Assembly: GCA_902632125.1 (NCBI GenBank) | Contig: CACPBQ010000015.1 | Coordinates: 1-42,195, forward strand | Direction: 5' to 3' | Source of the DNA: Paracoccaceae bacterium | Lineage (GTDB): Bacteria; Pseudomonadota; Alphaproteobacteria; Rhodobacterales; Rhodobacteraceae | Length of the DNA: 42,195 bases | Shown here: positions 11,996 through 29,894 of the stretch, piece after piece | How the letters are laid out: every line of letters starts with the position of its first letter | Numbering within the stretch: the first letter of the stretch is position 1 | Notes under the pieces: generated by a model | Seen by the model: only the letters and a program-made list of their open reading frames with translations | Database searches by the model: none | Told to the model about the DNA's origin: nothing | Made by a program: the position numbers and the translations under genes

Positions 11996-13474
11996 TTACT
12001 GCATTATAAACGGATTAGAACTGGTCGTCTGCTGAGCGATCCAAACGGATTTAACTTGCATGAATTCTTTAATTGATTCTTGACCGCTTTCTCTGCCTTG
12101 ACCTGATCTTTTGTAGCCGCCGAATGGCGTCATAAAACTTACGGCGCGGTATGTGTTTACCCAAACAGTGCCAGCTTTTAGTTTTTCAGACATTCGGAAA
12201 GCCCGACCTAAATCAGAAGTCCATACGCCGGCTGCGAGGCCAAACACTATATCGTTTCCAATACGGATGGCGTCTTCTTCTGTATCGAAAGGAATAACCG
12301 ATAGAATAGGCCCGAACACCTCTTCTTGTGCAATTCGCATATTATTTTTTACATCTGTGAATATTGTTGGTTCAACAAAGCGATCACCTTGAATGTCATC
12401 ACCGGTATAAGGCTTACCTCCTAGAACACAGGTTGCTCCATCTTCTTTTGCAACTTCTATATATTGTATAATTTTTTCGTATTGGGGCGCGGTAGTCACG
12501 GGTCCAACATGTGTTTCTACTGACATTGGATCTCCAATTTTTGCTTCACTTGCAACTTCAACTAAACGTTTAACGAACTTATCATGAATACTTCTTTGGA
12601 CCAGTAATCGTGAACCTGCTATGCAAGTTTGGCCAGTTGCGGCAAATATGCCTGATATTGCACCCATGACCGCAGCTTCAAAATCAGCATCCTCAAAGAC
12701 AATATTAGGTGACTTCCCGCCTAATTCTAAGGTAACAGGCATAATCTTTTTTGCAGCTGTTTCATAAATTTTTTGGCCTGCAAAGTCAGATCCTGTAAAG
12801 GCAATTTTGGCTAAATCTGGATGTTCTACCATCGGAGCGCCTATTTCAGTTCCGAAACCAGTAATACAATTTACAACTCCTTTCGGAAAACCCGCTTCAT
12901 TGACCAGCTCCATAAATTCCAAAGATGAAGCAGAAGTAAACTCAGAGGGTTTAATTACGGCTGTATTACCCGCTGCAAGGGCAGGGGCCAGCTTCCAGGC
13001 TAATAGTAAGAGAGGAGAATTCCAGGCTGTAATCATTCCAATTACACCCAATGGCTCATATCTTGTGAAATTAAAAATACCAGGTCGATCAGCTGGTAGA
13101 ACTGCTCCTTCTATTTTATCAGCAAGGCCTCCAAAATAGCGGTACCACTCTGCTAAATATTTTGTTTGTGCACTCATTTCGGTAATTAGCTTACCGTTAT
13201 CACGAACTTCTAGATTTGCTAATCTTTCAGCTTCGCGCTCAATAATTTCAGCAAGCCGCACCAACAGCTTGCCTCTTTGCGTTGGCCGCATATCCGCCCA
13301 TGCCCCGCCATCGAATGCAGCTTTTGCGGCTTTAACAGCCTGATCAGCGTCTTTCTCACACCCTCGGGCAACTTTTGCCCAAACTTCACCAGTATATGGA
13401 TTTTCAGTATCAAAATATTTATTTTTGGCTGGTTCAACCCATTCGCCATTAATGAAGTGATTATATATTTTCAT
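11996..13474 (-). CDS. NAD(P)-dependent aldehyde dehydrogenase
   Basis: 492-residue member of the aldehyde dehydrogenase family that turns an aldehyde into a carboxylic acid. The motifs are in order: WNSPLLLLAWKLAPALAAGN with the catalytic asparagine near 150, VTLELGGKSPN with the general-base glutamate near 249, and the nucleophilic cysteine in ATGQTCIAGSR near 284. It starts 17 bases after the neighbouring alcohol dehydrogenase ends, so the two may oxidise one alcohol in two steps. The substrate is unknown; the betaine-aldehyde/aliphatic subgroup is only a resemblance. Confidence 0.88.
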   Translation of the reverse strand: MKIYNHFINGEWVEPAKNKYFDTENPYTGEVWAKVARGCEKDADQAVKAAKAAFDGGAWADMRPTQRGKLLVRLAEIIEREAERLANLEVRDNGKLITEMSAQTKYLAEWYRYFGGLADKIEGAVLPADRPGIFNFTRYEPLGVIGMITAWNSPLLLLAWKLAPALAAGNTAVIKPSEFTSASSLEFMELVNEAGFPKGVVNCITGFGTEIGAPMVEHPDLAKIAFTGSDFAGQKIYETAAKKIMPVTLELGGKSPNIVFEDADFEAAVMGAISGIFAATGQTCIAGSRLLVQRSIHDKFVKRLVEVASEAKIGDPMSVETHVGPVTTAPQYEKIIQYIEVAKEDGATCVLGGKPYTGDDIQGDRFVEPTIFTDVKNNMRIAQEEVFGPILSVIPFDTEEDAIRIGNDIVFGLAAGVWTSDLGRAFRMSEKLKAGTVWVNTYRAVSFMTPFGGYKRSGQGRESGQESIKEFMQVKSVWIAQQTTSSNPFIMQ

Positions 13475-13491
13475 TATTTACCGAACCTCTC

Positions 13492-14571
13492 TTAGTCATT
13501 CTCACTAGGTTGAAACACAATCCGGCCGGTGACTTTACCGTTTTCAAGATCATGTACAGCTTGATTGATTTCGGACAGTGGACGCCTGTCTATTGGGATT
13601 TGTTTAATCTTACCACTGCGCACCATATCAATTATTTTTTGCAGTTGTGGTGAATTTCCTACGTGGCTCCCACGAACGGTCATTGCTTTTTGTGGCAACC
13701 AAACTTGAGGCATGTTAAAGTCTCCACCTGCCTGACCTACTATTAAGAAACGGCCTGATTTAGCTAATGCACGGACTGCAAGCTGCGCGGTGGCCGATCC
13801 GCCAAATGTATCAAGTACTCCCATAAGTTTATTATTCGCTAACTTTTGTAGTTTTGACACGGATCCTTCATCTCTACTGTTTAAAACTTTCACTGCACCC
13901 ATTTCGCGGGCGGTGTTTAATTTCGTATCATCAACATCCACAGCTATGATATTTTCAAACCCAAGGGCTCGCGCGATGGCAATGGCATTCATTCCAAGCC
14001 CACCACATCCTAAAATGGCCATCCATTCATCGGTACGCAGTTCACCAAGTTTTTCTAAAGCATTGTAAACCGTAATCCCTGAGCACGCGTGAGGTACAAC
14101 ATCTGCAGGATCAAGCCCCTCGATATCTACTAAAAATTTTTCGTGTTCGACGAGGCAGTGCGTGGCAAAGCCTCCCTTTTGTTTTAGCCCAATGATCCGC
14201 ATTGATGCGCAATCACTTTCGCGCTCTTCCTGACATGCTGCACATTCTCCGCAACCAATCCAAGGGAAAACCAGCACTTGCTGACCTATTTTAAAAGCAC
14301 TAGCATCAGGTCCATTTTTTTCTACCACTCCTGCAATTTCATGACCGAATGTCATTGGTAATTCAGCACCGCGCTCTGCAAAGGTTAACCGGCCCTCGTT
14401 TCCCAAGTCCATATACCCCTTTTGGACATGTAGATCTGAATGACATAAACCCGCAGCTGTAACACGAATTAAAACTTCCGAGCCTTTGGGTTTTGGGAGT
14501 GGGTTTTTTCGTTTCTCAAATGGTTTAGCCCATTCAATAAGATCATAGCTGGTATAATGTGTCATCTTCAA
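13492..14571 (-). CDS. Zinc-dependent alcohol dehydrogenase
   Basis: 359-residue medium-chain dehydrogenase. The zinc sites are complete: C43 and H44 in GLCHSD, H77 and E78 in GHE, then structural cysteines C107, C110, C113 and C121. The GCGGLGMNAI loop near residue 188 binds NAD. Between the CHSD and GHE motifs there is an insertion (LHVQKGYMDLGNEGRLTFAERGAELP) seen in some NAD-dependent aryl- or acyclic-alcohol dehydrogenases. It lies in a run with an aldehyde dehydrogenase (17 bases downstream) and a CoA-transferase (21 bases upstream). Its paralogue at 6193-7317 is only distantly similar. Confidence 0.88.
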   Translation of the reverse strand: MKMTHYTSYDLIEWAKPFEKRKNPLPKPKGSEVLIRVTAAGLCHSDLHVQKGYMDLGNEGRLTFAERGAELPMTFGHEIAGVVEKNGPDASAFKIGQQVLVFPWIGCGECAACQEERESDCASMRIIGLKQKGGFATHCLVEHEKFLVDIEGLDPADVVPHACSGITVYNALEKLGELRTDEWMAILGCGGLGMNAIAIARALGFENIIAVDVDDTKLNTAREMGAVKVLNSRDEGSVSKLQKLANNKLMGVLDTFGGSATAQLAVRALAKSGRFLIVGQAGGDFNMPQVWLPQKAMTVRGSHVGNSPQLQKIIDMVRSGKIKQIPIDRRPLSEINQAVHDLENGKVTGRIVFQPSEND

Positions 14572-14592
14572 ATATTAATCCAATTTTATCAT

Positions 14593-15723
14593 TCATACTT
14601 CAAATTCTTTAAAAATCTTCGCAGTATGTTCTCCCAATTTGGGTGGTGAAGGTAAACTCTCATTCTTGTCTATCGTCCGATTAATAGGTGGCGCTGCCAT
14701 TGTTACTTCGTCGCCTTTGGTTGTTTTTACGTTAACCAAATTGAGCCCTACATGGTTGGAGAGTGCACTCACTGAATTGACCGAACCAAACGCAATATCA
14801 GCTTTAGTAAGTAAGTTAGTAAATTCGCTGACTGATAGTTGATTGGAAGTGCTATTAATCAACTTATGTAGTGCTTCAACATTTTTTACTCTTGCGTTAT
14901 TGTTACTGTACAGGGGGTCGTTTGCTAGCTCAGGTTTTTTAAGAACTTGGGCGCAAAATCGCGCCCACTCCCGTTCATTTTGTATCGCAATTATGACCTT
15001 AGAACCGTCTTTAACAGAAAATGCTGCATAAGGCTGGATAGATGGATGCATTAACCCCACTCTTTTTGGACTTTTACCGCCATATTTATATTGTAGTAGA
15101 GGTACATTCATCCAATCTGATGCAACACCAAATAAAGATATGTTGACACCATAACCTTCACCAGTGCGTTCTCTATAAAAAAGAGCTTCCACAATTGCTG
15201 CATGTGCAGTCATGCCAGCGCCAATGTCACATATTGATACACCAATACGACCAAGTTCATTTGGGCCTCCTGATATATCAACAAGCCCACTTTCAGCTTG
15301 CACTAAAAAGTCATAAGCTTTCAATTCGCTTGCCGGCCCAGTTTCTCCGTAACCAGAAATATCGCAAGTAATTAGTTTGGGGTTTTGCTTTCGTATTTCT
15401 TCTGAACCAAAGCCTAATCTTTTCGTTGCCCCTGGAGCCAGATTCTGAACGAAGACATCTGCTTTCTTTATCAGTTGGTGCATAAGTTTTATATCTTTTT
15501 CAGATTTCAAATCTAGGACAATGGATTCCTTTCCATGATTGGTCCATAAAAAATAAGAACTATCACCATTAGCGGCTGAGTCATAACCTCGGGCAAAATC
15601 CCCTTCAGCACGTTCAATTTTTATGACCCTTGCACCCATATCAACCAGCCTTGATGTACACAAAGGCGCTGCTAGTGCCTGTTCTAGAGAAACAACAAGA
15701 AAATCAGAAAATGGGTTGTCCAA
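14593..15723 (-). CDS. Family III (CaiB/BaiF) CoA-transferase
   Basis: 376-residue CoA-transferase that moves CoA between two carboxylic acids through an enzyme-bound anhydride. The catalytic aspartate is D138 in LKAYDFLVQAESGL, and the family stretches GARVIKIERAEGDFAR (30-45) and SICDIGAGMTAHAAIVEAL are present. This subgroup includes enzymes for mesaconate, itaconate, citramalate and succinate CoA esters, but the substrate cannot be read directly. It sits between the MmgE/PrpD genes and the dehydrogenases, as expected in an organic-acid breakdown cluster. The CitE-like lyase at 21861 could act on its product; that is inference. Confidence 0.88.
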   Translation of the reverse strand: MDNPFSDFLVVSLEQALAAPLCTSRLVDMGARVIKIERAEGDFARGYDSAANGDSSYFLWTNHGKESIVLDLKSEKDIKLMHQLIKKADVFVQNLAPGATKRLGFGSEEIRKQNPKLITCDISGYGETGPASELKAYDFLVQAESGLVDISGGPNELGRIGVSICDIGAGMTAHAAIVEALFYRERTGEGYGVNISLFGVASDWMNVPLLQYKYGGKSPKRVGLMHPSIQPYAAFSVKDGSKVIIAIQNEREWARFCAQVLKKPELANDPLYSNNNARVKNVEALHKLINSTSNQLSVSEFTNLLTKADIAFGSVNSVSALSNHVGLNLVNVKTTKGDEVTMAAPPINRTIDKNESLPSPPKLGEHTAKIFKEFEV

Positions 15724-15750
15724 ATCTTTGTCCTTTTTATTCTTTATTGG

Positions 15751-17124
15751 TTATCGCAACATTTTGGTAATTTCATCGAGGTCTCTGATTTCTTCCAGGT
15801 TAATTATTTTTTTAGCAACTTGCCCTGCTTTATCTACTCCGAGAACAGGTAAACTTAGTTTATGGAATTTTTCTTGTATTTCCCCTGAAGTCATCCGATT
15901 GTTTGGATCGCCTTTTGCAAAAATTTGTTTGCCAGAGAATTTCCTCCCATCCTGAGTTTTGATGTCTACTATCGATGCAACAGTGTTTGGGTGTTCTTCA
16001 GCAAGTTGAGTACTAGAGTCAATTTTAATGCGCGACATTATTTCGTTTATTTCTGGATCAGCTAGAGTGTCTTCCGTAAATCTTTCAAGTGATACTGCAC
16101 CGTCTTGAAGGCCAAGTGATACGGCAAAGGGTGTACTCAAGCGGGCCGCCAAAGGACTTTTAGGCGTATAATTCATTCCTTGGCCAGGCATTGTCTCAGA
16201 CTGAATGATACTAACTTCCGCAATATCATCTTTTTTCAATCCGTTTTCTTTAACCAGCTCTAGGGTTTTTGAAATTGCAGTGTGGCTACATTGGATAGTA
16301 GGAAAAGATTTTAGCCCACCAACACTTATTTCGTAATATTCACCCAAACGATCAAGCAATGGTTCAAAATTTGGTTCTTCTGAAAAGGCATTGAAGAATC
16401 CTGAGGAATATTCAAGGATTCCTAATGGGCCCGTCGCCCCATTTTTAATTAACTGGGCGAACAGTACCGCTTTCATCGCGGCCATAGCTGGATGTAAACT
16501 TTTGGAAAAATCGCCGTTGTCGACACCATATCGAAGACCTCCAGCCGCATCAGCTGCAAGGCCTATTGTCATTTCGATCTGCTGGCTATCTAGTTTTAGA
16601 AGTTTTGCTGCCGCTACGCCCGCGCCAATACCTCCAAAAGTAGCTGTTGGATGCCAGTATCTGTAATGACTGGGCATAGCGCATCGCCCTACGCGACCAG
16701 CGACATCAAAGCCCAGCACGAAAGCTTCAATTATTTCTTCACCGTTAGAATTTAGTTCTTCACCAAGAGCGAATGTTGTTGCCACCAAAGATGAGCCCAG
16801 ATGGGTGATTGAAGGCATGTGCGTATCATCAAAATCAATAGTGTGCGCAATTGCACCATTAGCCAGAGCTGCTATTGCGGCGCTGGTTCTTTCTTTTTCT
16901 CCGAAAATAGTTGAGTTACCTTTTGACTTCTGAGTGTCTGTAAACATTGTTATCCAAGATACTTCTTCTTTGGCTTGTGTCCTTCCCCCAAGAGCACATC
17001 CAAGAGTATCGAGAATAAATAATTTTGCCTGGTCTATAACTTCATGCGGTAGATTGGCGTAACGGAAATTGAAGGCAAATTCCGAGAGTTTCTTAGTTAT
17101 GGCTTCGTTTTGCTGGTGGCCCAC
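15751..17124 (-). CDS. MmgE/PrpD family protein (first copy)
   Basis: 457-residue protein of the MmgE/PrpD family, which holds 2-methylcitrate dehydratase, cis-aconitate decarboxylase and many uncharacterised enzymes. Family landmarks are LDTLGCALGGR (30-40), ANGAIAHTIDFDDTHMPSITHLGSS (about 93-117) with the conserved DDTH, SHYRYWHPTATFGGIGAGVAAAKLL and the IQCSHTAIS region in the second domain. No prpB or prpC is present, so a methylcitrate cycle is unlikely. It precedes the CoA-transferase gene by 27 bases and is separated from its paralogue by 137 bases that contain an AT-rich inverted repeat. Confidence 0.87.
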   Translation of the reverse strand: MGHQQNEAITKKLSEFAFNFRYANLPHEVIDQAKLFILDTLGCALGGRTQAKEEVSWITMFTDTQKSKGNSTIFGEKERTSAAIAALANGAIAHTIDFDDTHMPSITHLGSSLVATTFALGEELNSNGEEIIEAFVLGFDVAGRVGRCAMPSHYRYWHPTATFGGIGAGVAAAKLLKLDSQQIEMTIGLAADAAGGLRYGVDNGDFSKSLHPAMAAMKAVLFAQLIKNGATGPLGILEYSSGFFNAFSEEPNFEPLLDRLGEYYEISVGGLKSFPTIQCSHTAISKTLELVKENGLKKDDIAEVSIIQSETMPGQGMNYTPKSPLAARLSTPFAVSLGLQDGAVSLERFTEDTLADPEINEIMSRIKIDSSTQLAEEHPNTVASIVDIKTQDGRKFSGKQIFAKGDPNNRMTSGEIQEKFHKLSLPVLGVDKAGQVAKKIINLEEIRDLDEITKMLR

Positions 17125-18731: not shown

Positions 18732-19661
18732 TTGGATATCAAACAATTAAAAACTTTTATCTGTGTTGCAGAGACAGGTTCACTTAGCGCAGCCTCTGAT
18801 CGATTAAGATTGGCTCAGCCTGCACTTTCAAGACAAATAAAACTTTTAGAGCATAAATCCGGCGCCCAATTATTCCATCGTTCTGTTAAAGGAATGACGC
18901 TTACCGAAAGTGGCGAGAAGCTTCTTTCAAGGGTCTCAGGAATTATTCGTCAGCTTGAACAGGCAGTGGATGAAGTGCGCTCAAGCGCAGAAAGCATTAC
19001 TGGCAGTGTTGCTTTAGGGTTAATGCCAAGCATAAATTCAGTTTTGGCAGTTCGCTTGATTGAAAAAATAAAAAATGAGCTTCCACATGTAACTCTGAGA
19101 ATTGTTGAAGGTTATTCTGGAAATTTAATTGAGTGGTTACATCGTGGTGATTTGGATATTTCGTTTCTTTATGGGCCTACAAATGATTTGCATTTGTGGT
19201 GCAAAGAACTTCTCTACGAAGATATCGCGCTGATAAGTGCCCCTAGTAAATTGAAAGGCTTGGGCAAAGAAATAGAGCTTAACGATATTGCTCATTTACC
19301 AATTGTTTTACCAAGTCGCCCCCATGGCATACGAATACTTGTTGACAACGCAACAGCCAAGGCTGGTGTAAAATTGAATATTGCAATAAGTGGTGACGCT
19401 TTTGAAGTATTAAAGTCGTTGGTTAAAACTGGGAATTATCATGCATTTATCCCCCTTTCAGCTATTAATGAAGAGCTGAATGAGGGTACACTCGAGGCCA
19501 GAACTTTTATTTCTCCAACGATAAAGCGGCAACTTATCTTAGCAATGGCGCCTGATAGAAAAAATACTCGGGCTACGCAATCTGCATTAAAACTTATAAC
19601 TAATGAAATAGAACAGATGGTTAAAGAAGGGACTTGGAAAGCAAAACTCGTTGCTAGTTAA
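18732..19661 (+). CDS. LysR family transcriptional regulator
   Basis: 309-residue LysR-type regulator. The N-terminal helix-turn-helix (MDIKQLKTFICVAETGSLSAASDRLRLAQPALSRQIKLLE, residues 1-40, shown here in outline by LSAASDRL and QPALSRQIK) is followed by an effector-binding domain from about residue 90. The start is TTG at 18732, chosen because family members begin exactly at this position. It is divergent from the MmgE/PrpD gene and so probably controls the catabolic run to dctPQM in response to an organic acid. I could not single out a convincing T-N11-A box in the gap. Confidence 0.92.
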   Translation: MDIKQLKTFICVAETGSLSAASDRLRLAQPALSRQIKLLEHKSGAQLFHRSVKGMTLTESGEKLLSRVSGIIRQLEQAVDEVRSSAESITGSVALGLMPSINSVLAVRLIEKIKNELPHVTLRIVEGYSGNLIEWLHRGDLDISFLYGPTNDLHLWCKELLYEDIALISAPSKLKGLGKEIELNDIAHLPIVLPSRPHGIRILVDNATAKAGVKLNIAISGDAFEVLKSLVKTGNYHAFIPLSAINEELNEGTLEARTFISPTIKRQLILAMAPDRKNTRATQSALKLITNEIEQMVKEGTWKAKLVAS

Positions 19662-19680: not shown

Positions 19681-20145
19681 CTAGATTTTTAAATCAAGAC
19701 GTGGTTTCCAAAATGGTCTGAAGAGCTCAATTTTAGGGCAACGGTTCATGACAACTTGAAGGCCTGCATTTTCCGCAAGTTCTGCGGCTTTATCGTCATA
19801 AACACCAATCTGTCCCCACAAAACTTTTGCACCAACAGATATCGCTTTTTCAGCGATTGAATAGAGTTCTTCTTTGGGACGAAAAACATCTACCATGTCA
19901 ATTGGTTTTTCTATCTCCTCAAGCGAATGAAAGACTTTTAAACCTCGGATCTCTGATATATTTGGGTTTGGGTTTACGGGTAAAATATCATAGCCAATTT
20001 CATTCAATTGACGAAGTACACCATAACTAAACTTTGTTTTATCACCGCTTGCTCCAACCATAGCTATGGTTTTAACTGAACTTAGGATCTCAGCGAGATA
20101 TTTAGGATCGTAATCGTAGAGACGGTCAATATCAGCTTCTGGCAT
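19681..20145 (-). CDS. CoA-binding domain protein (YccU type)
   Basis: 154-residue single-domain protein of the CoA_binding_2 family with a Rossmann fold. The start of the domain, IAMVGASGDKTKFSYGVLRQL (about 27-47), and ILPVNPNPNISEIRG, VDVFRP and the tail cysteine in MNRCPKIE are all typical. It lacks the catalytic domains of acyl-CoA synthetases, so a binding or regulatory role is likely. The start ATG directly abuts the ferredoxin stop codon (TAAATG), which indicates translational coupling in the SBP56 operon. It ends 19 bases from the convergent LysR gene. Confidence 0.88.
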   Translation of the reverse strand: MPEADIDRLYDYDPKYLAEILSSVKTIAMVGASGDKTKFSYGVLRQLNEIGYDILPVNPNPNISEIRGLKVFHSLEEIEKPIDMVDVFRPKEELYSIAEKAISVGAKVLWGQIGVYDDKAAELAENAGLQVVMNRCPKIELFRPFWKPRLDLKI

Positions 20146-20511
20146 TTAAATTTCCTTTGAAGTCGCGATGTCGGACTTTAATTCATGAGGTTTTAATGGA
20201 TCAAGAAATGGATTTCGATATAGTTTGTCATGGCTTTCTACACCAATTTCAATCTTCAAGTCAGATTTTGCTCGCGCTACACACAATATAATATATCCAT
20301 TTGAAATCTGCCTATTATTAAGTGCAACTTGCCTTTTTTGGTTCACTTCACCACTGGTTAATTTAGCAGCGCAAGTTATACATCCTCCATACTTACAACC
20401 ATAAGGCAAATCCACGCCCTGCTCTCGAAGAGCATCCAAAAGAGGGCGCCGGTTATCAACTTCGTATTTTTTATTATCGCGATTTGTAATGGTTACAGTA
20501 TGCTTCGTCAT
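20146..20511 (-). CDS. Plant-type [2Fe-2S] ferredoxin
   Basis: Small electron carrier. Counting from the ATG at 20511 (121 residues), the cluster cysteines are C39, C44 and C47 in the CKYGGCITC pattern (C-X4-C-X2-C), with the fourth, C77, 29 residues on in ILCVARA. This is the plant and oxygenase-type arrangement. I chose the ATG that overlaps the upstream stop as ATGA over the TTG six bases earlier. The position between the SELENBP1-like and CoA-binding genes suggests it passes electrons to or from an enzyme of this operon, perhaps the copper protein upstream, but no reductase partner is coded nearby. Confidence 0.9.
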   Translation of the reverse strand: MTKHTVTITNRDNKKYEVDNRRPLLDALREQGVDLPYGCKYGGCITCAAKLTSGEVNQKRQVALNNRQISNGYIILCVARAKSDLKIEIGVESHDKLYRNPFLDPLKPHELKSDIATSKEI

Positions 20512-21857
20512 AGCCAAATATCACTTGTACAGTCGCCACCTGGATATCGCGCCTCGTGGCATCTACTTGGGCCATGGGGCTCCTCACCGAAATTTACTAT
20601 AAAGTCTGGATTTATTTTCATTCCACCATTGACTGGGTCACAATCGATTTGAACCATAACTCCACCTTTTTCTCTTATCTCTGGATAGAATTGATTATCC
20701 CAGGTCGAAAAAAGTGATGTGGTTACATAGAGACGTTTTCCGTCAAGGCTCAATTGGAACATTTGTGGACCGCCCGTAACCTCCACACCATTAACTCGAG
20801 GTGCTTTCCCCAGCAGACCACCCATAAAAACTTGTCCGGTTAAAACAGGATTATGGGGATCAGAAATATCATACTGGCGCATATCGCCATGCAACCAATT
20901 GTTGAGGTAAAGATATTTATCGTCCATTGAAATGAGAATTGCAGACATAACGCCAGGAAGAGGAATGGGCCAATCGGGATGCATTTCATTTTCCACATCA
21001 ATAACTTTTTCCCATTTCCAAGTGCCGGTATCATCTTTCCACCAGTGGATAACGTTGGTTGAAAGTGCGGCCCCACAAAACCCATGAGTACTGTCTGGAT
21101 TATGATGAAATTTTACTTCCAGAGGAAGAAGACCATCCTCACCCAAATAGAAACTTTCGATAGGTTCTTTCTTTTTGAAATCCCAGAAATGTAGTTCTCG
21201 ACCGTACTTAAGGTGGCCTACTTCCTCTAAATCAAACCCAGGCATAAATGTATTTGGTGCTGCCCATTCAGAACTTACCATAATGTTGTGACGAGGTTGA
21301 TACCAAAAATCATATCCAAACTTTATATCGCCCATCGAGTTTTCCCACCGGCCAATAATATTGAAGTCTTTGTCTAGCTGTAGATACCCACCGGGGGCTT
21401 CACCTTTGGCATCACCAAGAAATGAAATTATGATCTCCGACCCTAAGCAATGTACAGTATGAGGGCCAGATAAATTGGCTTTTCCTTTTATCTCTGCTCC
21501 ATCTATTACTTTATGAATGCGTGGAGCCCGTGGATCTGTTGCGGTGTCTACGATATGCAAATTATTTGATCGGACACCAGGAAGGATAAGAAACTTTCGA
21601 GACATTGAGCTATCATCGTGGCAGCTTGAACAGGCATTCCATCCCATGTGGTGAAGTTCATCGCCGATGCCCGGCATCTCAAGTCTATGAATAACTTGGC
21701 TATAGGTTGGACTGTCAGGGTCGACGTCTACAGTTGCTAGATAGTCTGGTTTTTGAATACCTGTTCCAGTATAGATTGCTATTGTATATAGTAGTTTTTC
21801 ACTAGGGGCTTTAATTGCTTCTTGTGGGCTTGCATAGCCGGGTCCACAACACTCCAT
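20508..21857 (-). CDS. SELENBP1/SBP56 family protein, probable methanethiol oxidase
   Basis: 449-residue beta-propeller protein of the selenium-binding protein family. Characterised members (human SELENBP1, bacterial MtoX) oxidise methanethiol to formaldehyde, H2S and H2O2 using copper. The sequence follows the human protein as I remember it from end to end: CCGPGYASP at the start, DELHHMGWNACSSCH (66-80), YDFWYQPRHN, SNWLHGDMRQYDISDP-like and the closing RYPGGDCTSDIWL. C76, C79, H80 and the H69-H70 pair are candidate metal or redox residues. There is no signal peptide, so it should be cytoplasmic, unlike periplasmic MtoX. It overlaps the ferredoxin gene by 4 bases and lies 3 bases after the CitE-like gene. 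Confidence 0.88.
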   Translation of the reverse strand: MECCGPGYASPQEAIKAPSEKLLYTIAIYTGTGIQKPDYLATVDVDPDSPTYSQVIHRLEMPGIGDELHHMGWNACSSCHDDSSMSRKFLILPGVRSNNLHIVDTATDPRAPRIHKVIDGAEIKGKANLSGPHTVHCLGSEIIISFLGDAKGEAPGGYLQLDKDFNIIGRWENSMGDIKFGYDFWYQPRHNIMVSSEWAAPNTFMPGFDLEEVGHLKYGRELHFWDFKKKEPIESFYLGEDGLLPLEVKFHHNPDSTHGFCGAALSTNVIHWWKDDTGTWKWEKVIDVENEMHPDWPIPLPGVMSAILISMDDKYLYLNNWLHGDMRQYDISDPHNPVLTGQVFMGGLLGKAPRVNGVEVTGGPQMFQLSLDGKRLYVTTSLFSTWDNQFYPEIREKGGVMVQIDCDPVNGGMKINPDFIVNFGEEPHGPSRCHEARYPGGDCTSDIWL

Positions 21858-21860
21858 TAC

Positions 21861-22718
21861 TTATTCTCCCAAGCGATCAGCGATTGAAATAATTCTGTAC
21901 ATTTCCCGCATTACTGGTTTCTCTATCAATTTACCATCAATAACTACAAGTCCTGTATCTGCAGCTTCAAATTCATTTATAATTTTTCGTGCACGGGTAA
22001 TTTGGTCTTTTGTTGGTGTGAAGACTTCATTTAATGCGGCAATCTGCTTCGGGTGGATAGATCCTTTTCCCGTGAACCCTAAATCACGAACTCGTTCAGC
22101 TTCTATGCGCATACCTTTCGGATCATCTAAATCAAGATAGGGCACATCTAAAACATCTAGACCAGCCATTGCAGATGCATGGGCGACTCGTGAGCGGGCG
22201 TAAAATAAAGTTTCAAATGTGTTTGGGCATCTTAATTCTGCAGCCATATCTACTCCCCCAAAAAACATAGCATCTATTCTGTCTGAGCACTTTGCTATAG
22301 CATAAGCAGCTTCAAGTCCTTCATTAGTTTCAATAATAACATGAAGTCGTGAATTATGCCCAGCCTCAGTTAGTAATTGATCCAGTATAACAACCTCATC
22401 TGGGGTTCGAACTTTCGGCATCATTAAAGCTGGAGGTGGTGTCTTTGTTGCTAGGATTGCATTTACATCCTCAATACCAAAACGCTCTCGTATGGAATTA
22501 ATCCTTACCATCCTTTCTACACCATCATCAGCCTGTGGCTGTTCAAATAAAGCAAGAGTGTTTTTTCGAGCCTCTGCTTTATCTCTTGGAGCAATTCCGT
22601 CTTCTAATTCTACACAAACAATATCTGCGCCGCTGGCTAGAGCTTTAGGAAACATGTCTGGCCTCAAGCCAGGAGTGAAAATAAAACTGCGGCGCGGGCG
22701 AATAATGCGGTTTGTCAT
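21861..22718 (-). CDS. CitE-like (HpcH/HpaI family) acyl-CoA lyase
   Basis: 285-residue TIM-barrel lyase of the CitE group, which includes malyl-CoA, citramalyl-CoA and citrate lyase beta proteins that split 3-hydroxy-acyl-CoA compounds. Motifs: RSFIFTPGLRPDMFPKAL (9-26), VCVELEDGIAP with the metal-binding glutamate and aspartate near 35-38, MMPKVRTPDE, the metal ligand E129 in VIIETNEGL, and GKGSIHPKQI near the C-terminus. It stands 3 bases before the SELENBP1-like gene, an odd partner. Possible links are to the CoA-binding protein downstream or the CoA-transferase at 14593. The exact substrate is unknown. Confidence 0.87.
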   Translation of the reverse strand: MTNRIIRPRRSFIFTPGLRPDMFPKALASGADIVCVELEDGIAPRDKAEARKNTLALFEQPQADDGVERMVRINSIRERFGIEDVNAILATKTPPPALMMPKVRTPDEVVILDQLLTEAGHNSRLHVIIETNEGLEAAYAIAKCSDRIDAMFFGGVDMAAELRCPNTFETLFYARSRVAHASAMAGLDVLDVPYLDLDDPKGMRIEAERVRDLGFTGKGSIHPKQIAALNEVFTPTKDQITRARKIINEFEAADTGLVVIDGKLIEKPVMREMYRIISIADRLGE

Positions 22719-22772
22719 TTCGGCGTCCTTTCAAGTGAAACCACCTAGCATTTTAATTTTAAATCAAAACCG

Positions 22773-24998
22773 CTAGTTTCCTTGGTATTTTTCAACTTCC
22801 ACTTCGATGTTATGTGCTGCAGAGCCTTGCCCCAAATCTGATGTGCCTGTATCAGCAGTAAGAACATTCGGGTTTCCCGAAACATCTAATCCATCTGCAT
22901 TTGGCGAAAACCAAGCGCCTGTAGCTAATGAAACTACTCCCTGTATAATCGTTTTTCTAATCTCTAAAGAAGCAAGGCAAGCGCCTCTAGAATTCCAAAC
23001 TTTGACCAATTCGCCTTCTGATAAGCCTCTTTTTCGCGCATCTTGAGGGCTCATCACTAAAACTGCATATTTGTTTATGTCTTCAATTGCAGATTGTAAT
23101 TGGCTGTGCAATTTATCGTGCGGCTGTGGAGATACTAAAGACAACGGAAACTTTGCATCTAAATGTGGCTTGTTAAAAATAGGGTAGCCTGGGATTTCTG
23201 GATAATTAAACTTTGCAATCCTTTCTGAATAGATTTCAATTTTTCCGGATGGTGTGCCGAGTGGATTCTTTATGGGGTCGTCGCGGAAAGCTTTGAAGGG
23301 CACGTAATCTTTTTCGTCCAGATCAATCGACATCCTCTCGAAATTTTTTTCTTTAAGTGTTTCAAGATTCGCGACATTAATTCCCAGACTTTTAGACTGC
23401 CTATAAAATTTATCATAAATACTTTGAATCCATTCTTCGGATGATTGATTTTCTGTAAATTTTTCCTCGCAATAAAGTTTTTTAGATAGGTCTGCAAAAA
23501 TATCATAATCATCTTTTGCTTTACCCACTGGTGAAATCATTTGTGGCATATAGAACAAATAAGGATCACCTTTTGCCCAACCTATATCTGATCGCTCAAA
23601 TTGCGTGGTAGCCGGGAAAACTATGTCGGCTCGCTGAGCTGTCGCTGTCCACCAAGGTTCATGTACGATTACAGTCTCAGGATATTGCCATCCTTTGGCA
23701 AGACGATTTAGATCTTGATGATGGTGGAATGGATTTCCACCACACCAATAAACCAACTTGATGTCTGGATAAATACGTTTTTTGCCATTGAAATTGTAAT
23801 GGCCATTTGGATTTAAGAGCATGTCTGTGATGCGCGAGACGGGTATAAAATCAGCAATAGGGTTTGTGCCTTGTTCAAAAAGAGGACCTTGCATTCTTTT
23901 TGCAGTTTTGCCTATGTTTCCAATAGCGCCATAACCGAAGCCAATGCCTCCTCCAGGCAGGCCAATTTGGCCCAACATAGCTGCTAAAACACAAGCCATC
24001 CAGTAAGGATGTTCACCATAACGTGCTCTCTGCAAAGACCATGAAACACTAATTATTGTCCGACCAAGTGCCATTTTGCGAGCTAAATTTTTAATGTCAG
24101 AGGCGTTTATTCCGGTTATTTCGGAAGCCCATTCAGGTGTTTTAGCAACATGTTCATTATTCCCCAAAAAATATGTTTTAAATAACTCATAGCCTGAGCA
24201 ATATTTATTCAAAAAATTTTGGTCGGTCAGTTTCTCAGTTTCCAAAACATAAGCAATAGCTAACATTAAAGCGACGTCTGTGCCGGGCAATATTGGAAGC
24301 CAACGAGTCTCCTTTGGGCTATCATCTTTTTGGGGGCTGATTGAAACCAAATTTTTGCCCATTTTACCAAATTTCTTGAAGTGATCAGATACATCGTGTT
24401 CTGTTGACCCACCCATGCTAACTTGCGAATTTTTTGGATTGATACCACCAAAAATAATCAGGTTATCAGTATGTTTGCCAATCGAAGACCAGCTATTTAT
24501 TTCCCCCCAAGTTATTTTATGAAAATTAAGTCCCAGGACATGAGGTATAATAGCTTGTGCGGCTCCAGTGCTATAGCTGGCAAAAGAACTAACATACCCG
24601 CCAAAAGAATTTAGAAAACGGTGCAATTGGCTCTGTGAATGATGAAAACGGCCTGCACTTGCCCAGCCGTAAGAGCCGCCATATATGGCTTTATTACCAT
24701 AATCATTCTTTATGCGGTTTAATTCTTTGGCAGCCAGGTCAATTGCGTCTTCCCAGCCAATAGGAATAAATTCATCGCTCCCTCTTGCTGTATCCGGGTT
24801 TTTTTCAATCCAACCCTTCCTAACGTAGGGTTGATCAATTCGCGTTGAATGATAGACAGCATTTGGCACCAGCTTTGAAATATTTGGGGGTGCAGGGTCG
24901 GCGTGAAAAGGCTCAGTTTTTACTATTCTGTCATTTTCGACAAATACATTGAAGGCACCCCAGTGGCTCGTGGTTACCTTTGAAAATTTTTTTCCCAT
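22773..24998 (-). CDS. Molybdopterin oxidoreductase of the DMSO reductase family (BisC-like, cytoplasmic)
   Basis: 741-residue molybdoenzyme with bis-MGD cofactor. It starts with the HWGAFNVFVENDRI stretch of the biotin sulfoxide/TMAO/DMSO reductase subgroup and has no N-terminal cysteine motif for an Fe-S cluster. S143 in SYSTGAAQAIIPHVLG is the expected serine ligand of molybdenum. There is no twin-arginine signal peptide, so the protein should act in the cytoplasm, like BisC, and not as a respiratory reductase. Further landmarks are NPKNSQVSMGG, RWLPILPGTDVALMLAI and the C-terminal molybdopterin dinucleotide-binding domain (about 620-735). Likely substrates are S- or N-oxides. It heads the tight part of the operon, 54 bases before the CitE-like gene. 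Confidence 0.9.
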   Translation of the reverse strand: MGKKFSKVTTSHWGAFNVFVENDRIVKTEPFHADPAPPNISKLVPNAVYHSTRIDQPYVRKGWIEKNPDTARGSDEFIPIGWEDAIDLAAKELNRIKNDYGNKAIYGGSYGWASAGRFHHSQSQLHRFLNSFGGYVSSFASYSTGAAQAIIPHVLGLNFHKITWGEINSWSSIGKHTDNLIIFGGINPKNSQVSMGGSTEHDVSDHFKKFGKMGKNLVSISPQKDDSPKETRWLPILPGTDVALMLAIAYVLETEKLTDQNFLNKYCSGYELFKTYFLGNNEHVAKTPEWASEITGINASDIKNLARKMALGRTIISVSWSLQRARYGEHPYWMACVLAAMLGQIGLPGGGIGFGYGAIGNIGKTAKRMQGPLFEQGTNPIADFIPVSRITDMLLNPNGHYNFNGKKRIYPDIKLVYWCGGNPFHHHQDLNRLAKGWQYPETVIVHEPWWTATAQRADIVFPATTQFERSDIGWAKGDPYLFYMPQMISPVGKAKDDYDIFADLSKKLYCEEKFTENQSSEEWIQSIYDKFYRQSKSLGINVANLETLKEKNFERMSIDLDEKDYVPFKAFRDDPIKNPLGTPSGKIEIYSERIAKFNYPEIPGYPIFNKPHLDAKFPLSLVSPQPHDKLHSQLQSAIEDINKYAVLVMSPQDARKRGLSEGELVKVWNSRGACLASLEIRKTIIQGVVSLATGAWFSPNADGLDVSGNPNVLTADTGTSDLGQGSAAHNIEVEVEKYQGN

Positions 24999-25108
24999 TA
25001 ACTATAACTCAAAGAATTCTTACTTACTGTGTGTCTTGCTTAAAACAAACTTAACTTTTCTTGTATTTCAAGTTTGGGTATTTTGGAACGTATTTTATTT
25101 CAACCAGT

Positions 25109-26410
25109 TTATCTGATGATTTTGGGGCAGTCATAAACCTGTTTCAGAATAAGCTCTACAAGACCAAACTCTGATTCACCATTTAGGTCCTCAAAATATA
25201 GATGGCTAGGCCAAGGCTCATTTACAAAATTATTTAAAGGCAAATCAATCTTTTCACAAACTTCCTTTATAGCCTTAACATAGTCTTTAGCAGCGTTTCC
25301 CAACTGCTCTCTGGCCATTTCCAGGTCTTCTATACTGTTTCTATCGACTTCGCCGGACCCAATACCCGTTGTTAATGGTATGTTTCTTTGCAGCGACTGA
25401 TCGCGATAAAACGCAACATCAACTTTATCAGCTTCGAGCCGCATCATAAATTTCTGACAGACACTAAATTTTATATCAGTAAGTTCATTCAAGTTTACTT
25501 TATTCGATGCGCTTGTAACTTTTGAGCTTCTACGGGAACGCCTATTATTACTTTGTACATTTGCCACGTAATCGCCTCTGTAATTACAATCAAAAACTCT
25601 TCCGTTCCAAAGATTTCCCCCATCCATGCGCTGAATTGATCTTATGGACATTGTTTTGCAATTCTCTGGCCCAATAAAAAAAGGTGAACCTGAAGCATCT
25701 GAAAGCTCTACCCATCCGTTAGGAAAAACAGTCAAGTGGTGTTCTATCCAAGGTATTATCACTTTGTCTGCCAGATGATCTAATAGAGCGTTAACATGCT
25801 CTGGATCATTTACAACATCTGCTAAAAGTGGTTCTTGACCATATATATCAGCCGCGAGACTGTAAGGTGCCGAAATTTGAAGCAAAGGTTCCATACCCGT
25901 TAACTCTTCTGTTACCCGCAATATATCGTCAATTATTTTGGGAATACCTGTACTAAAATCTGGCGTTTCTAAATCAAAACAGTTTTCTTTATTGATCAAA
26001 GCTTCGTCGGGATCAGATCCGGGAGGGAATTTATCTGGGTACATCATTTTTTGGCCCAATACTTCGCAAGAAAAAGCATAGAGTGCCCATGTCATATATA
26101 ATTTCTTTACCCCCAATAATCTACCGACGGTGAGATTTGCACGCACATACCTGTAAGGATCAGTTTTATAATATTCAGCAGAAGTGATACCATATAGGTC
26201 ATTTAATATTGCAAGAGCTAACATATGCACAGAGGCGGTTGAATGAACTTCATCGGCTGGAGCAAGAATAGAAAAATTATCATCAAAATTACCAGCGATA
26301 GCAGCATCAAAAATAGATTTGATTTCCGCTTTACCTTCTTCGTTCCCTGTTTGCCAAGATTTTAAAAGGTGAAGCCCTTTCGGATAAGAATAGGTTGTTA
26401 AATCTACCAT
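25109..26410 (-). CDS. Uroporphyrinogen decarboxylase superfamily protein, function unknown
   Basis: 433 residues. The centre carries marks of the UroD/MtaA superfamily: LLQISAPYSLAADIYGQEPLLADVVNDPEHV (175-205), a PWIEHH stretch and SDASGSPFFIGPENC near 239-253. The superfamily includes haem-making UroD and corrinoid methyltransferases. True UroD is unlikely, since the N-terminal substrate-arginine region is not recognisable, and I see no H-x-C zinc motif of the MtaA/CmuA methyltransferases. A basic, serine-rich segment (VQSNNRRSRRSSKVTSASNK, about 286-305) looks like an insertion. It lies 110 bases upstream of the molybdoenzyme on the same strand, so it probably belongs to that operon. Confidence 0.7.
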   Translation of the reverse strand: MVDLTTYSYPKGLHLLKSWQTGNEEGKAEIKSIFDAAIAGNFDDNFSILAPADEVHSTASVHMLALAILNDLYGITSAEYYKTDPYRYVRANLTVGRLLGVKKLYMTWALYAFSCEVLGQKMMYPDKFPPGSDPDEALINKENCFDLETPDFSTGIPKIIDDILRVTEELTGMEPLLQISAPYSLAADIYGQEPLLADVVNDPEHVNALLDHLADKVIIPWIEHHLTVFPNGWVELSDASGSPFFIGPENCKTMSIRSIQRMDGGNLWNGRVFDCNYRGDYVANVQSNNRRSRRSSKVTSASNKVNLNELTDIKFSVCQKFMMRLEADKVDVAFYRDQSLQRNIPLTTGIGSGEVDRNSIEDLEMAREQLGNAAKDYVKAIKEVCEKIDLPLNNFVNEPWPSHLYFEDLNGESEFGLVELILKQVYDCPKIIR

Positions 26411-26511
26411 TTTAAACTCGAAATTAAATTTTTTCTTTTATAGGTTTCTTAAAAATATTTTTCATAAATTTCGGTTTGTACACAATAAATTGGAATTACA
26501 ATATAGACCCA

Positions 26512-26529
26512 TTATAAAAATTTCTATAA
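26512..26529. promoter_or_regulatory. AT-rich 18-bp palindrome upstream of the UroD-family gene
   Basis: TTATAAAAATTTCTATAA is self-complementary except for one base pair. It is in the 143-base gap between the end of pit (26554) and the start of the UroD-family gene (26410), so it could be an operator for the latter. There is no GC stem, so it is a poor terminator. In AT-rich DNA this may be chance. Confidence 0.25.
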
Positions 26530-26553
26530 GCCCATTTAGATATTTTATTTTCT

Positions 26554-27606
26554 TTAAACAACTTGCAGTGAAAAAACATTCTGTAGAAAAAAGAGCCCTA
26601 TAAAACATAAAATAAAAGCGACAGCTGGCGCTAAAATCCATCCAATTAAGATTTTTCCTAATACCGCCCAGTTTATACTGGCTACGCCCTTTAAAATCGA
26701 TATACCGATGATAGCACCAACCACGGCTTGTGAGCTGGAAACCGGTACTAATGGTATTGTTGGCAATCCAAGATTTAATAAAAATGTTTCAAGACCACGA
26801 GATGCAAACATAAACAGAACAATTGAGTGCGAAATTACTGCGATCAAAGCTGTTGTAGCCGAAAGGCTGCCAAGTTGGGATCCAACTGTATCTATAACTT
26901 TGCGAGAATATGTAAACACGCCTAGGCCGATTGATAAGCCGCCCAAAAGTAAAAGCTGTTGTGCTGAACTCAAAGAGAAACTCCCAAGTTCAAGAGTTGG
27001 AAATGGCTGTACTGGTATAAAAACTCCAACAACGTTCGCTATATTATTTGCACCTAAAGCATAAGCTCCAAGTCCACCAGCAACTATTAAGGCTATCCTC
27101 TTTATAGCGTCTAGCGTTATCATATGGATAGCCATACGCCGTGCGAGAAATTTTATTAATTTTACTAGTAAAACGGCTATAATGCCGGCTAGTAGAGGAC
27201 ATAAAATCCAAGTACTCAAGATCTTTAACAAAATGACTGTGTCTGTTGGTTTTTGAGAAAAGAAATTCCAACCGATAATAGCCCCAACTATTGCCTGAGA
27301 TGTTGAAACAGGTAGACCGCCTTTAGTCATTATAAAAACTGAAAATCCTGCGGAGAGAGCTGTCATGAAAGCACCGGGCAGAGCTGAAATAGCCCCAAGT
27401 TTTCCAAGGGTTTCTGTCGTTCCAGCTCCTGAAAATAAAGCGCCCAATAAAACACAAATAGAACAAATTATGGCCGCGGTTCTCCATGACACCATTTTTG
27501 TTCCTACCGCGGTACCAAAAACATTAGCGGCATCGTTGGCACCAAGAGCCCAGCCTAGAAAAAGTCCGCTAGATAAAAAGATTAAAACTAAAGGGTCAAT
27601 AGCCAT
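26554..27606 (-). CDS. pit: Low-affinity inorganic phosphate transporter Pit
   Basis: 350-residue inner-membrane protein of the PiT family, which imports phosphate (often as a metal-phosphate complex) with protons or sodium. The two inverted family repeats are clear: GANDAANVFGTAVG (22-35) and GANNIANVVG near 185, and the paired GGLPVSTSQAIVGAIIGW and VPVSSSQAVVGAIIGI segments. It is of the short type, without the long central loop of the E. coli protein. Its start overlaps the stop of the PhoU-like gene by one base (TAATG). This common pairing supports phosphate rather than sulfate as substrate. Confidence 0.93.
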   Translation of the reverse strand: MAIDPLVLIFLSSGLFLGWALGANDAANVFGTAVGTKMVSWRTAAIICSICVLLGALFSGAGTTETLGKLGAISALPGAFMTALSAGFSVFIMTKGGLPVSTSQAIVGAIIGWNFFSQKPTDTVILLKILSTWILCPLLAGIIAVLLVKLIKFLARRMAIHMITLDAIKRIALIVAGGLGAYALGANNIANVVGVFIPVQPFPTLELGSFSLSSAQQLLLLGGLSIGLGVFTYSRKVIDTVGSQLGSLSATTALIAVISHSIVLFMFASRGLETFLLNLGLPTIPLVPVSSSQAVVGAIIGISILKGVASINWAVLGKILIGWILAPAVAFILCFIGLFFLQNVFSLQVV

Positions 27607-28262
27607 TAAGACTGTCTTTTGATGGCATAAATAGTCAAACGGTCAGCAACATCCTCTGCATGATCTGCGATCGAGTCTATTCGGTCAACGAACTCTCTTA
27701 GATGAAGTTTTAAGGCCAATTCGAGGTTCGAAGAAAAGATTTGTTTCTTGAGGTTAGTACTTAGTTTGTCAGCCTCTTTTTCGTAAAGATTGACTTTCGC
27801 TACATAGCTTGAAACTAAATGTGGTGACTGAAAAAAAATTCTGGCACCCGTTGCTAATTCATCAACAGCTTTTGCTACCATATTGGTAAGTCTCCGATAA
27901 CCAGGGATCAGTTCTTCATCGATTGTTGGCGCCTCTATTGAAAAAGCCCATAGTGATGTTTTCATCAGAGAAAAAACCTCATCTGCAGTTTCGATTAGTC
28001 CCAGAACATCACCTCTAGAGTCTGGGATCAACATATCGGAATAAATTGCCAGTTTGATCTCATTCCGCAGAGTATCTGCACTGGTTTCAATATCACAAAC
28101 TTGTTCAAAGCGAGTTGTATATTCTTCAGACAAACCTTCTCGGAGATAATTTCTTACTGCCAATCGATAAATTACGCCAGCTTCTGCCAATTTTAGGAAG
28201 AAGCTATCTACTTTATTTTCAAGATCACTAGTTTTTTGAAAAAGTCTTAAATTTAATACCAC
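27606..28262 (-). CDS. PhoU-like Pit accessory protein (DUF47/TIGR00153)
   Basis: 218-residue all-helical protein. The acidic repeats ETADEVFSLM (91-100) and DSIADHAEDVADRL (195-208) are the metal-binding PhoU-type signature. Members coded beside Pit are thought to control phosphate uptake. It is the first gene of a two-gene operon with pit, overlapping by one base. The 141-base gap to the divergent MocR gene must hold both promoters; no clear Pho box stood out when I read it. Confidence 0.9.
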   Translation of the reverse strand: MVLNLRLFQKTSDLENKVDSFFLKLAEAGVIYRLAVRNYLREGLSEEYTTRFEQVCDIETSADTLRNEIKLAIYSDMLIPDSRGDVLGLIETADEVFSLMKTSLWAFSIEAPTIDEELIPGYRRLTNMVAKAVDELATGARIFFQSPHLVSSYVAKVNLYEKEADKLSTNLKKQIFSSNLELALKLHLREFVDRIDSIADHAEDVADRLTIYAIKRQS

Positions 28263-28403
28263 CTGCTAACCTTATTATAATATTCGCTACTACATTTATC
28301 AGAGATTTATCTAAAATGATGTTGTCTGTAAACTTACTAGAGTTATAAAGGGCTTACGTATATACCCAATTTTGCGATAAATTTAAGCCCATTAGGAATA
28401 AAT

Positions 28404-29894
28404 ATGGTAAAATCTGCAAAAGGTGCCTTACTATCAACGTTGGAAATCGATAGAAACTCTAGGATACCAATTTATCGCCAAATCGAAGATTTCTTGAGAC
28501 AAATGATACTTGACGGAGTACTTTTGCCCAGTCAAAAATTACCTTCATCACGTGAGCTGGCATTAGAATTGGATGTATCGAGGATCACAATTAAATCGGT
28601 TTATGAACAATTAAATTCTGAAGGCTACGTCCAAGGGAAAACTGGCTCTGGTACATTTGTATCCGAAGGATTAGAAGGTGAGACCCCTGTAATCCCTTCA
28701 CTTAGTATTATAAAAAAAGAATACTTTGACGAAAATTTTTCGCAAACTGCTGGACATATTTCGTTTTCGAAAGCAAGTGCAAGATATGGATCAATCTTGC
28801 CTTTTCGTCCTGGCGTACCGGCGTTGGATAAATTTCCAATTAAAAGGTGGAACAAATATCTTAGCCGAGCGACGACTAAATCCAGTATTACAAATCTTAG
28901 TTACGGAGACTTACTTGGTTCTCAAAAACTAAGAGCATCGATTGCTTATCATTTAGCGGATTCAAGAGGTATGAAGGTTGATCCAAAACAAATTTTAATA
29001 ACATCCGGTGCTCAACAAGCGTTCGTATTAATTTCTTACATATTAATGAATACAAACGATACCGTTTGGTATGAAAATCCTGGTCATATCGCTGGCCGAG
29101 ATTTGATGCAAATTGTTGGTGGTGATGTCGCACCAATCCCTATAGATGATGAAGGCTTAAATTTGCCTTTTGCAATTTCGAATTTTCCAAAACCGAAACT
29201 GATATTTACGACGCCATCTCATCAACAACCACTAGGGATTACAATGTCACTTCAGAGACGGCTTGCCCTTCTAAAATATGCCCATGAAAATGCTTCTTGG
29301 ATAATTGAGGACGACTATGACAGCGAATTTCGGTATCGGGGCCGGCCTCTTCCTGCGCTTGCTGCATTAGATAAAGTTGGTCGCGTGTTATATGTTGGCA
29401 CGTTTTCTAAGTCACTTTTCCCATCGGTTCGGATAGGTTATGTTGTAGTACCTGAAATGCTTATGGACGCATTCGCTAAGACACGTAATATTTTTGGACA
29501 AACCTCTTCTGCAATAGTAGAAGAGGCTCTTTCGAATTTTATGGATGATGGTTGTTTTGCAGAGCATATAAGAAAAATGCGGCGTTTATATCGTGATAGA
29601 CGAGACATTTTGCTTAACGAATTGCAAAAAAATTGCTCTAATAATTTAACACCGCAAAAAACCGACGCGGGAATGCACATTATTGCTGATATTAAAAATG
29701 GCACAAGCGATCGATTAGTGCATTTAGAACTTCTCAAATCAGGTATAGATTCACTTCCCCTATCTATCTACTATTTAGGTCCTGTTCAAAGGCAAGCCCT
29801 CGTTTTAGGTTTTTCGGGATCCCAAAAAAAAGTTATTCCAAAATTGGTTAGCAAGATGGGTACTATTCTTAATACTTTTCAAGCCAGTAACTAA
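28404..29894 (+). CDS. MocR family regulator (GntR helix-turn-helix plus aminotransferase domain)
   Basis: 496 residues in two parts. Residues 19-90 form a GntR winged helix (IPIYRQIEDFLRQMILDG, LPSSRELALELDVSRITI, GYVQGKTGSGTFV). Residues 130-490 are a class I aminotransferase-like domain with the PLP lysine K336 in VGTFSKSLFPSVRIGY and the aspartate of EDDYDSEFRYRG. Such proteins sense PLP or amino compounds and control nearby genes. The EamA permease 27 bases downstream is the likely co-transcribed target; known MocR proteins often sit beside transporters or amino-acid genes. Confidence 0.92.
   Translation: MVKSAKGALLSTLEIDRNSRIPIYRQIEDFLRQMILDGVLLPSQKLPSSRELALELDVSRITIKSVYEQLNSEGYVQGKTGSGTFVSEGLEGETPVIPSLSIIKKEYFDENFSQTAGHISFSKASARYGSILPFRPGVPALDKFPIKRWNKYLSRATTKSSITNLSYGDLLGSQKLRASIAYHLADSRGMKVDPKQILITSGAQQAFVLISYILMNTNDTVWYENPGHIAGRDLMQIVGGDVAPIPIDDEGLNLPFAISNFPKPKLIFTTPSHQQPLGITMSLQRRLALLKYAHENASWIIEDDYDSEFRYRGRPLPALAALDKVGRVLYVGTFSKSLFPSVRIGYVVVPEMLMDAFAKTRNIFGQTSSAIVEEALSNFMDDGCFAEHIRKMRRLYRDRRDILLNELQKNCSNNLTPQKTDAGMHIIADIKNGTSDRLVHLELLKSGIDSLPLSIYYLGPVQRQALVLGFSGSQKKVIPKLVSKMGTILNTFQASN

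Follow-up and report, generated by a model that had tools for sequence, protein, structure and literature searches.

Pairing of ferredoxin genes with SELENBP1-type genes suggests an electron partner for one branch of the methanethiol oxidases

The closest described systems to the one considered here are methanethiol oxidases of the SBP56 family. MtoX of Hyphomicrobium and Ruegeria pomeroyi is periplasmic and encoded with SCO1/SenC and MauG genes, is linked to demethylation of dimethylsulfoniopropionate (DMSP) and has an upstream IclR gene in roseobacters; conserved SBP56 histidines were assigned as copper ligands (PMC5739008). For Ruegeria, another two members of the selenium-binding family have been put forward as candidates (PMC7157515). 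RdMTO and RlMTO of Rhodobacteraceae belong to cluster 1, whose members carry the cysteine motifs GWNACS, HTV(I)HC and GGDCS(T), and the accessible text reports that RdMTO yields sulfane sulfur and formaldehyde but no H2O2, the products of methanethiol oxidases being disputed between H2S plus H2O2 and sulfane sulfur plus water (PMC10936201). Here we analysed a 42,195-nucleotide stretch of DNA (contig CACPBQ010000015.1, assembly GCA_902632125.1; hereafter the window) from a Paracoccaceae bacterium, in which a SELENBP1-type gene of this family is followed by genes for a ferredoxin and a small coenzyme A (CoA)-binding protein, together referred to as the trio (Table 1).

The trio closes a series of six genes at 19681-26410, preceded by genes for a UroD-superfamily protein, a BisC-type molybdoenzyme and a CitE-like lyase. 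The layout given in the first-pass annotation, with six minus-strand genes of these families and close coupling of the last four, was borne out by the open reading frames (ORFs), by Pfam (URO-D, molybdopterin oxidoreductase, HpcH_HpaI, SBP56, Fer2 and CoA_binding_2) and by the intergenic distances: 110 bases between UroD and BisC, 54 between BisC and CitE, 3 between CitE and SELENBP, an ATGA overlap at the SELENBP–ferredoxin junction and 0 bases between the ferredoxin and CoA-binding genes. The ferredoxin gene was started at the ATG at 20511, as opposed to the longer TTG-start ORF in the ORF list. A promoter and terminator scan of the sequence revealed no excess over shuffled sequence (26 against 29.7 in shuffles, and 7 against 10.5).

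The window SELENBP resembles RdMTO and RlMTO in being an SBP56 protein that keeps all three cysteine motifs of cluster 1 (PMC10936201), here GWNACS (C76), HTVHC (C137) and GGDCT (C443). Residues H69, H133 and H434 were invariant across 74 family rows, and H70 was conserved in 97-100 %; conserved histidines are likewise shared with MtoX (PMC5739008). It differs from the periplasmic MtoX in that no signal peptide was visible and in having ferredoxin and CoA-binding genes instead of SCO1/SenC and MauG genes, neither of which turned up in a Pfam scan of 29 genes of the window. The NCBIfam MtoX equivalog model scored 149.8 of 650 bits against it, below the cut-off.

To place this arrangement within the family we collected 76 SELENBP rows, dropped two truncated duplicates (L181 and L149) before counting, and typed the remainder by identity as SELENBP1-type (at least 50 %; 26 rows), sister type (38-43 %; 39 rows) or MtoX-like (27-29 %; nine rows). 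Hidden Markov models (HMMs) for the ferredoxin and the CoA-binding protein were then applied within 1.4 kb downstream of each SELENBP gene. A ferredoxin match followed 23/26 SELENBP1-type genes, 0/39 sister-type genes and 0/9 MtoX-like genes, or 0/8 assessable MtoX-like rows, as only 42 bases of downstream sequence are available for one of these rows. The association also held in reverse: a search of 385 class genomes found this ferredoxin at E ≤ 1.2e-28 in eight, the next ferredoxin scoring 1.2e-17, and all eight fell among the nine class genomes that carry SELENBP1-type genes; in the remaining genome the gene is cut by a contig end. SELENBP–ferredoxin pairs were also present on four haloarchaeal plasmids. 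In an alignment of 13 ferredoxins the four cluster cysteines were kept in every member, and the bacterial members except one (G052) carried a tail beyond the shared core. A Paracoccus SELENBP1-type protein with a downstream ferredoxin (L074) has cysteines 82, 143 and 448, the same numbering as RdMTO (PMC10936201), so the assayed RdMTO probably belongs to the ferredoxin-associated SELENBP1 type, judged by cysteine spacing only. By the same measure RlMTO (cysteines 76, 140 and 456) would fit the sister type without ferredoxin, whose cysteines 78, 142 and 458 lie at a constant offset.

Taken together, the pairing suggests a hitherto unrecognised electron partner for SELENBP1-type methanethiol oxidases. 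A term search of the available text of PMC10936201 yielded nothing on ferredoxins, operons or CoA-binding partners, and the word ferredoxin was likewise absent from the available text of the MtoX description (PMC5739008) and from the passages seen of a study predicting SELENBP1/mtoX in SAR116 (PMC12262181). Among openly licensed PMC papers, seen in part, none was found that ties SELENBP, SBP56 or methanethiol oxidase to ferredoxin pairing, and the ferredoxin mentions in papers where the terms co-occurred were unrelated.

The CoA-binding HMM matched downstream of 17/26 SELENBP1-type genes and of no sister-type or MtoX-like gene. These 17 genes grouped as a single clade in the SELENBP tree (100/99), where one branch (100/99) led to all 39 sister-type genes. 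SELENBP, ferredoxin and CoA-binding protein are a widely conserved block that recurs in other marine bacteria. The enzyme family itself is known; what is new is a branch of putative methanethiol oxidases that has its own ferredoxin, joined in one clade by a CoA-binding protein. This last protein has relatives in the PDB (2duw and others) and an invariant cysteine near its C-terminus in seven sequences, which would fit CoA-linked sulfur handling; in a literature search on CoA persulfide and CoA-binding proteins neither term was found among the matches listed. A LysR regulator gene adjoins the trio in the window and in G002, G004 and G007. In G010, a CaiB gene directly follows the trio.

We then examined the surroundings of the 17 trio loci for sulfur and DMSP genes. 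DmdA-type genes were found near five, rhodanese near five, IclR near four and acyl-CoA synthetase near three, with at least one of these near eight; CitE was near five, BisC near three and UroD near three. The Phaeobacter locus supplied most of the probes and matches by construction, and without it the figure for any such gene was 7/16. The UroD search supplied 25 control loci, 356 kb in all, in which no rhodanese, IclR or synthetase gene was found; four of them had GcvT-family matches, sharing 25-38 % identity with the Phaeobacter gene and 25-29 % with the DmdA of the window's own genome. The fullest order was found on a plasmid of Phaeobacter inhibens P30, namely IclR, SELENBP, ferredoxin, CoA-binding protein, rhodanese, an MBL hydrolase related to the sulfur transferase/dioxygenase Blh, enoyl-CoA hydratase, acyl-CoA synthetase and a DmdA-like gene. 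The DmdA genes near the trio in G003 and G006 exceeded the family cut-off, as did a DmdA located elsewhere in the window's own genome (560.2 bits against 410). Relative to the described DMSP demethylation set (DmdA, DmdB, DmdD, then methanethiol oxidase), the trio thus has DmdA-type neighbours in some genomes, but no Dmd gene was present among the window genes checked. An unusual DmdA neighbourhood was seen at L099 (4899-13721), where the trio with rhodanese and thiolase genes is divergent from genes for a thiamine pyrophosphate enzyme, a transthyretin/HIUase-family protein, DmdA (539 bits) and an MttB-family protein.

On the strength of these data, we consider it probable that the functional core of the locus is the trio (19681-21857), acting as a mobile cytoplasmic methanethiol-oxidation cassette. 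Beyond the gene pairing, its reciprocity and the phylogeny, we infer the biochemical steps in this organism as follows. Demethylation of DMSP-like compounds would yield methanethiol, which the SELENBP1-type enzyme would bind; a copper–histidine site and a reactive cysteine would then cut the C-S bond to give formaldehyde and sulfane sulfur or sulfide, by chemistry published for relatives. Going by gene order, the dedicated [2Fe-2S] ferredoxin may pass electrons to or from SELENBP, and the CoA-binding protein may supply CoA or receive the sulfur product in CoA-conjugated form, which would pass to rhodanese and a persulfide dioxygenase. CitE would have joined the cassette only in the window's subclade, with BisC and UroD as neighbours from other modules.

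Several observations weigh against this reading. Eight SELENBP neighbours that served to seed the ferredoxin HMM are themselves among the counted loci, which is the reason for the independent reciprocal test in the class genomes. Three of the 26 SELENBP1-type genes (from Rubrobacter and two haloarchaea) have no ferredoxin, and no ferredoxin reductase gene was found within the cassette. According to the accessible text of PMC10936201, purified RdMTO degrades methanethiol without added ferredoxin; the ferredoxin is therefore not obligatory for some activity, and would modulate or regenerate the enzyme, or the rate in vitro may lie below the physiological one. Nine of the 17 trio loci, among them that of the window and those of the remaining four subclade members, lack a nearby DmdA-type, rhodanese, IclR or synthetase gene, and the Phaeobacter DmdA-like gene scored 377 bits, below the 410 DmdA cut-off. 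In the window's own genome, which is 70.55 % complete, a full-length DmdB candidate fell below the cut-off (712.4 of 822 bits), and no acyl-CoA synthetase of the Phaeobacter type was found at E ≤ 1e-100.

The likeliest alternative starts from BisC and CitE. CitE (E ≤ 1e-60) was found in 15 of 61 relatives, 11 of these 15 in the genus with the window's own genome included; the contigs of this genus, found by name, come from single-cell and metagenome assemblies of Rhodobacteraceae. BisC (E ≤ 1e-100) occurred in 28/115 class genomes, with a best identity of 55 % outside its own genome. In seven of the 11 genus genomes BisC directly precedes CitE (G000, G003, G008, G009, G010, G011 and G012); among the others, MarR, PanB and Rieske genes lie between the two in G002, BisC and CitE are apart in G004, the contig ends in G007 and a GcvT-family gene precedes CitE in G013. 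A sister subclade pairs BisC and CitE without the other four genes, in the order GMC-VOC-GcvT-BisC-CitE (L167 and L168), GcvT-BisC-CitE (L164) or BisC-CitE (L163 and L165), with CitE 76-77 % identical and a GMC enzyme that is choline-dehydrogenase-like. The GMC-VOC-GcvT set also lies beside UroD-BisC in L105 and L106, in L105 together with a betaine-type ABC transporter. This neighbourhood looks like one for catabolism of a methylated osmolyte. In a genus-specific pathway, BisC and CitE together with the GcvT-family demethylase, the GMC enzyme and the VOC protein would degrade a methylated N- or S-oxide osmolyte, and the trio would have been recruited to a place behind CitE, where it would dispose of the methanethiol set free. 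The 3-base CitE–SELENBP gap, identical in 5/5 genomes of the window's subclade, agrees with such recruitment, as does a CitE beside a type 2 SELENBP in L163. However, CitE is joined to the trio only in the five loci of that one subclade, and the remaining 12 have none beside it. At only about 45 % identity, the BisC proteins from one subclade may be no orthologues of those from the other, and the nature of the substrate is conjecture. Matches of the GcvT proteins to the trimethylamine N-oxide demethylase, GcvT and DmdA models all fell far below the cut-off, with higher scores to the first than to DmdA. We regard this pathway as unlikely.

No twin-arginine translocation signal was visible at the N-terminus of BisC, and action on a sulfoxide is a family-level guess. 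The best NCBIfam model for CitE was RipC, at 249.9 of 375 bits; like the citramalyl-CoA lyase of the RipABC system it belongs to the HpcH_HpaI family, but it falls below the RipC equivalog cut-off and has other neighbours. The genes for MarR, a PanB-like protein and a Rieske oxygenase travel together as one block (L103, 6544-9067; L105, 10542-13068), sitting either between BisC and CitE or next to the GcvT-VOC-GMC set and betaine-type ABC transporter. Beside the sister-subclade CitE (L168, 8257-9492; also L164, L165 and L167) there are two same-frame ORFs split by a TGA (8710-8712 in L168), the second without a Pfam match, followed by an AIRS-family (SelD-like) gene; with SelA and SelB genes nearby, this looks like a selenocysteine gene. 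A type 2 SELENBP, about 40 % identical to that of the window, occurs in L163, L168, L172 and L173. The next gene encodes an uncharacterised 225-aa protein for which neither Pfam nor NCBIfam gave a match, and in L168 and L173 there are SelA/SelB genes close to this SELENBP.

It is also conceivable, and in our view quite unlikely, that the ferredoxin serves another enzyme, for example a Rieske oxygenase, or iron–sulfur metabolism, and that the role of SELENBP lies in handling persulfides or metals in general and not in acting on methanethiol. A Rieske oxygenase gene does lie near the trio in G002 (L103), the nine loci without a DMSP or rhodanese gene agree with this account, and the methanethiol role of the window SELENBP is predicted from sequence. 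Against this, a Rieske gene was near the trio in 1/17 loci and the ferredoxin in 17/17, the ferredoxin follows SELENBP in archaea too, and the SELENBP motifs match those of assayed methanethiol oxidases.

The first-pass annotation had taken all six genes as one pathway for uptake or breakdown of an oxidised or methylated sulfur compound, with carbon exported as an acyl-CoA. Besides the shared direction and the tight spacing of the last four genes, this is supported by the same six-gene order in G010 without insertion (L166/L019) and in G002 with three inserted genes (L103/L016); across genomes, however, only the trio is widely conserved. It occurs without CitE, BisC or UroD in 12/17 loci, and in G004 a BisC-UroD block (L106) and a CitE-trio block (L101) lie on different contigs. 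Amongst 27 UroD loci, a MocR-type regulator was beside UroD in 24 and DUF47-PiT in 16, whilst BisC followed UroD in five and the CitE-SELENBP-ferredoxin-CoA-binding block in two; UroD was thus mostly with MocR and PiT and without BisC (22/27), although many UroD contigs end within a few kb, leaving the absence of neighbours partly unseen. Two Leisingera plasmid regions, the first cut by the record end, likewise have MocR adjoining UroD without BisC or SELENBP. BisC is a separate module, found with UroD in the window and with CitE in the sister subclade. The gene order in relatives, where the six genes are found apart, an outcome that the first-pass annotation had itself named as counting against it, led us to reject the six-gene operon as a unit. 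We also rejected the CoA-binding protein as a lyase partner, as it follows SELENBP and ferredoxin in 17 loci, 12 of which lack CitE; its presence therefore does not indicate that the lyase yields an acyl-CoA. The suggested sulfur chemistry holds up for SELENBP, through its motifs and histidines, the trio beside DMSP-demethylation genes elsewhere and the own-genome DmdA, but not for the six genes as one pathway, a reading we consider very improbable.

MocR and DUF47-PiT-UroD (25109-29894) make up a conserved UroD-superfamily module that is separate from the trio and has apparently not been described before; a literature search combining MocR with uroporphyrinogen decarboxylase and Roseobacter found no paper. 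The predicted UroD structure (predicted local distance difference test score 78.8) best matched 4ay8, a Methanosarcina mazei methyltransferase, at E 1.7e-6 with template modelling scores of 0.54/0.66, and also matched 4ay7; a PDB sequence search gave no match up to E 0.1. MtaA-type methyltransferases carry an H-x-C zinc motif. This motif was not found in UroD, there being no histidine two residues before any listed cysteine. UroD might still be a methyltransferase of the same pathway: its modelled fold is MtaA-like, although the H-x-C motif is missing and its conserved neighbours are other ones. Elsewhere in the window, a single minus-strand run at 8664-17124 encodes two MmgE/PrpD proteins, a CaiB CoA-transferase, alcohol and aldehyde dehydrogenases and a TRAP transporter, and is likely an operon for organic-acid uptake and breakdown.

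Table 1. Positions of the trio and neighbouring features in the window
Feature	Position	Strand	Basis
LysR regulator, convergent on the trio	18732-19661	+	Pfam
Small CoA-binding protein, 154 aa	19681-20145	-	CoA_binding_2, 123 bits
[2Fe-2S] plant-type ferredoxin, 121 aa, proposed dedicated redox partner	20146-20511	-	Fer2; gene order
SELENBP1-type (SBP56) protein, 449 aa, putative cytoplasmic methanethiol oxidase	20508-21857	-	PF05694, 686.7 bits (gathering score 34); motifs
CitE-like C-C lyase	21861-22718	-	HpcH_HpaI
BisC-type molybdoenzyme	22773-24998	-	TIGR00509, 851.1 of 1017.55 bits, subfamily cut-off not reached
UroD-superfamily protein, MocR/PiT module	25109-26410	-	PF01208, 26.4 bits, barely above the 23.9 cut-off
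PiT-family transporter, upstream UroD partner	26554-27606	-	Pfam PHO4
DUF47 protein, upstream UroD partner	27606-28262	-	Pfam PhoU_div
MocR-type regulator, divergent from DUF47-PiT-UroD	28404-29894	+	Pfam GntR and Aminotran_1_2

Methanethiol is the branch point of marine DMSP sulfur, and a ferredoxin that accompanies one branch of the SELENBP family almost one-to-one offers a concrete, testable missing component, as well as a marker separating SELENBP1-type genes from relatives grouped under one name. More tentatively, SELENBP1-type methanethiol oxidases of bacteria and archaea may be ferredoxin-coupled enzymes and not simple O2-to-H2O2 oxidases; the ferredoxin would then set the electron balance and decide between sulfide, sulfane sulfur and peroxide, and animal SELENBP1 may likewise have a partner of this kind that has yet to be found.

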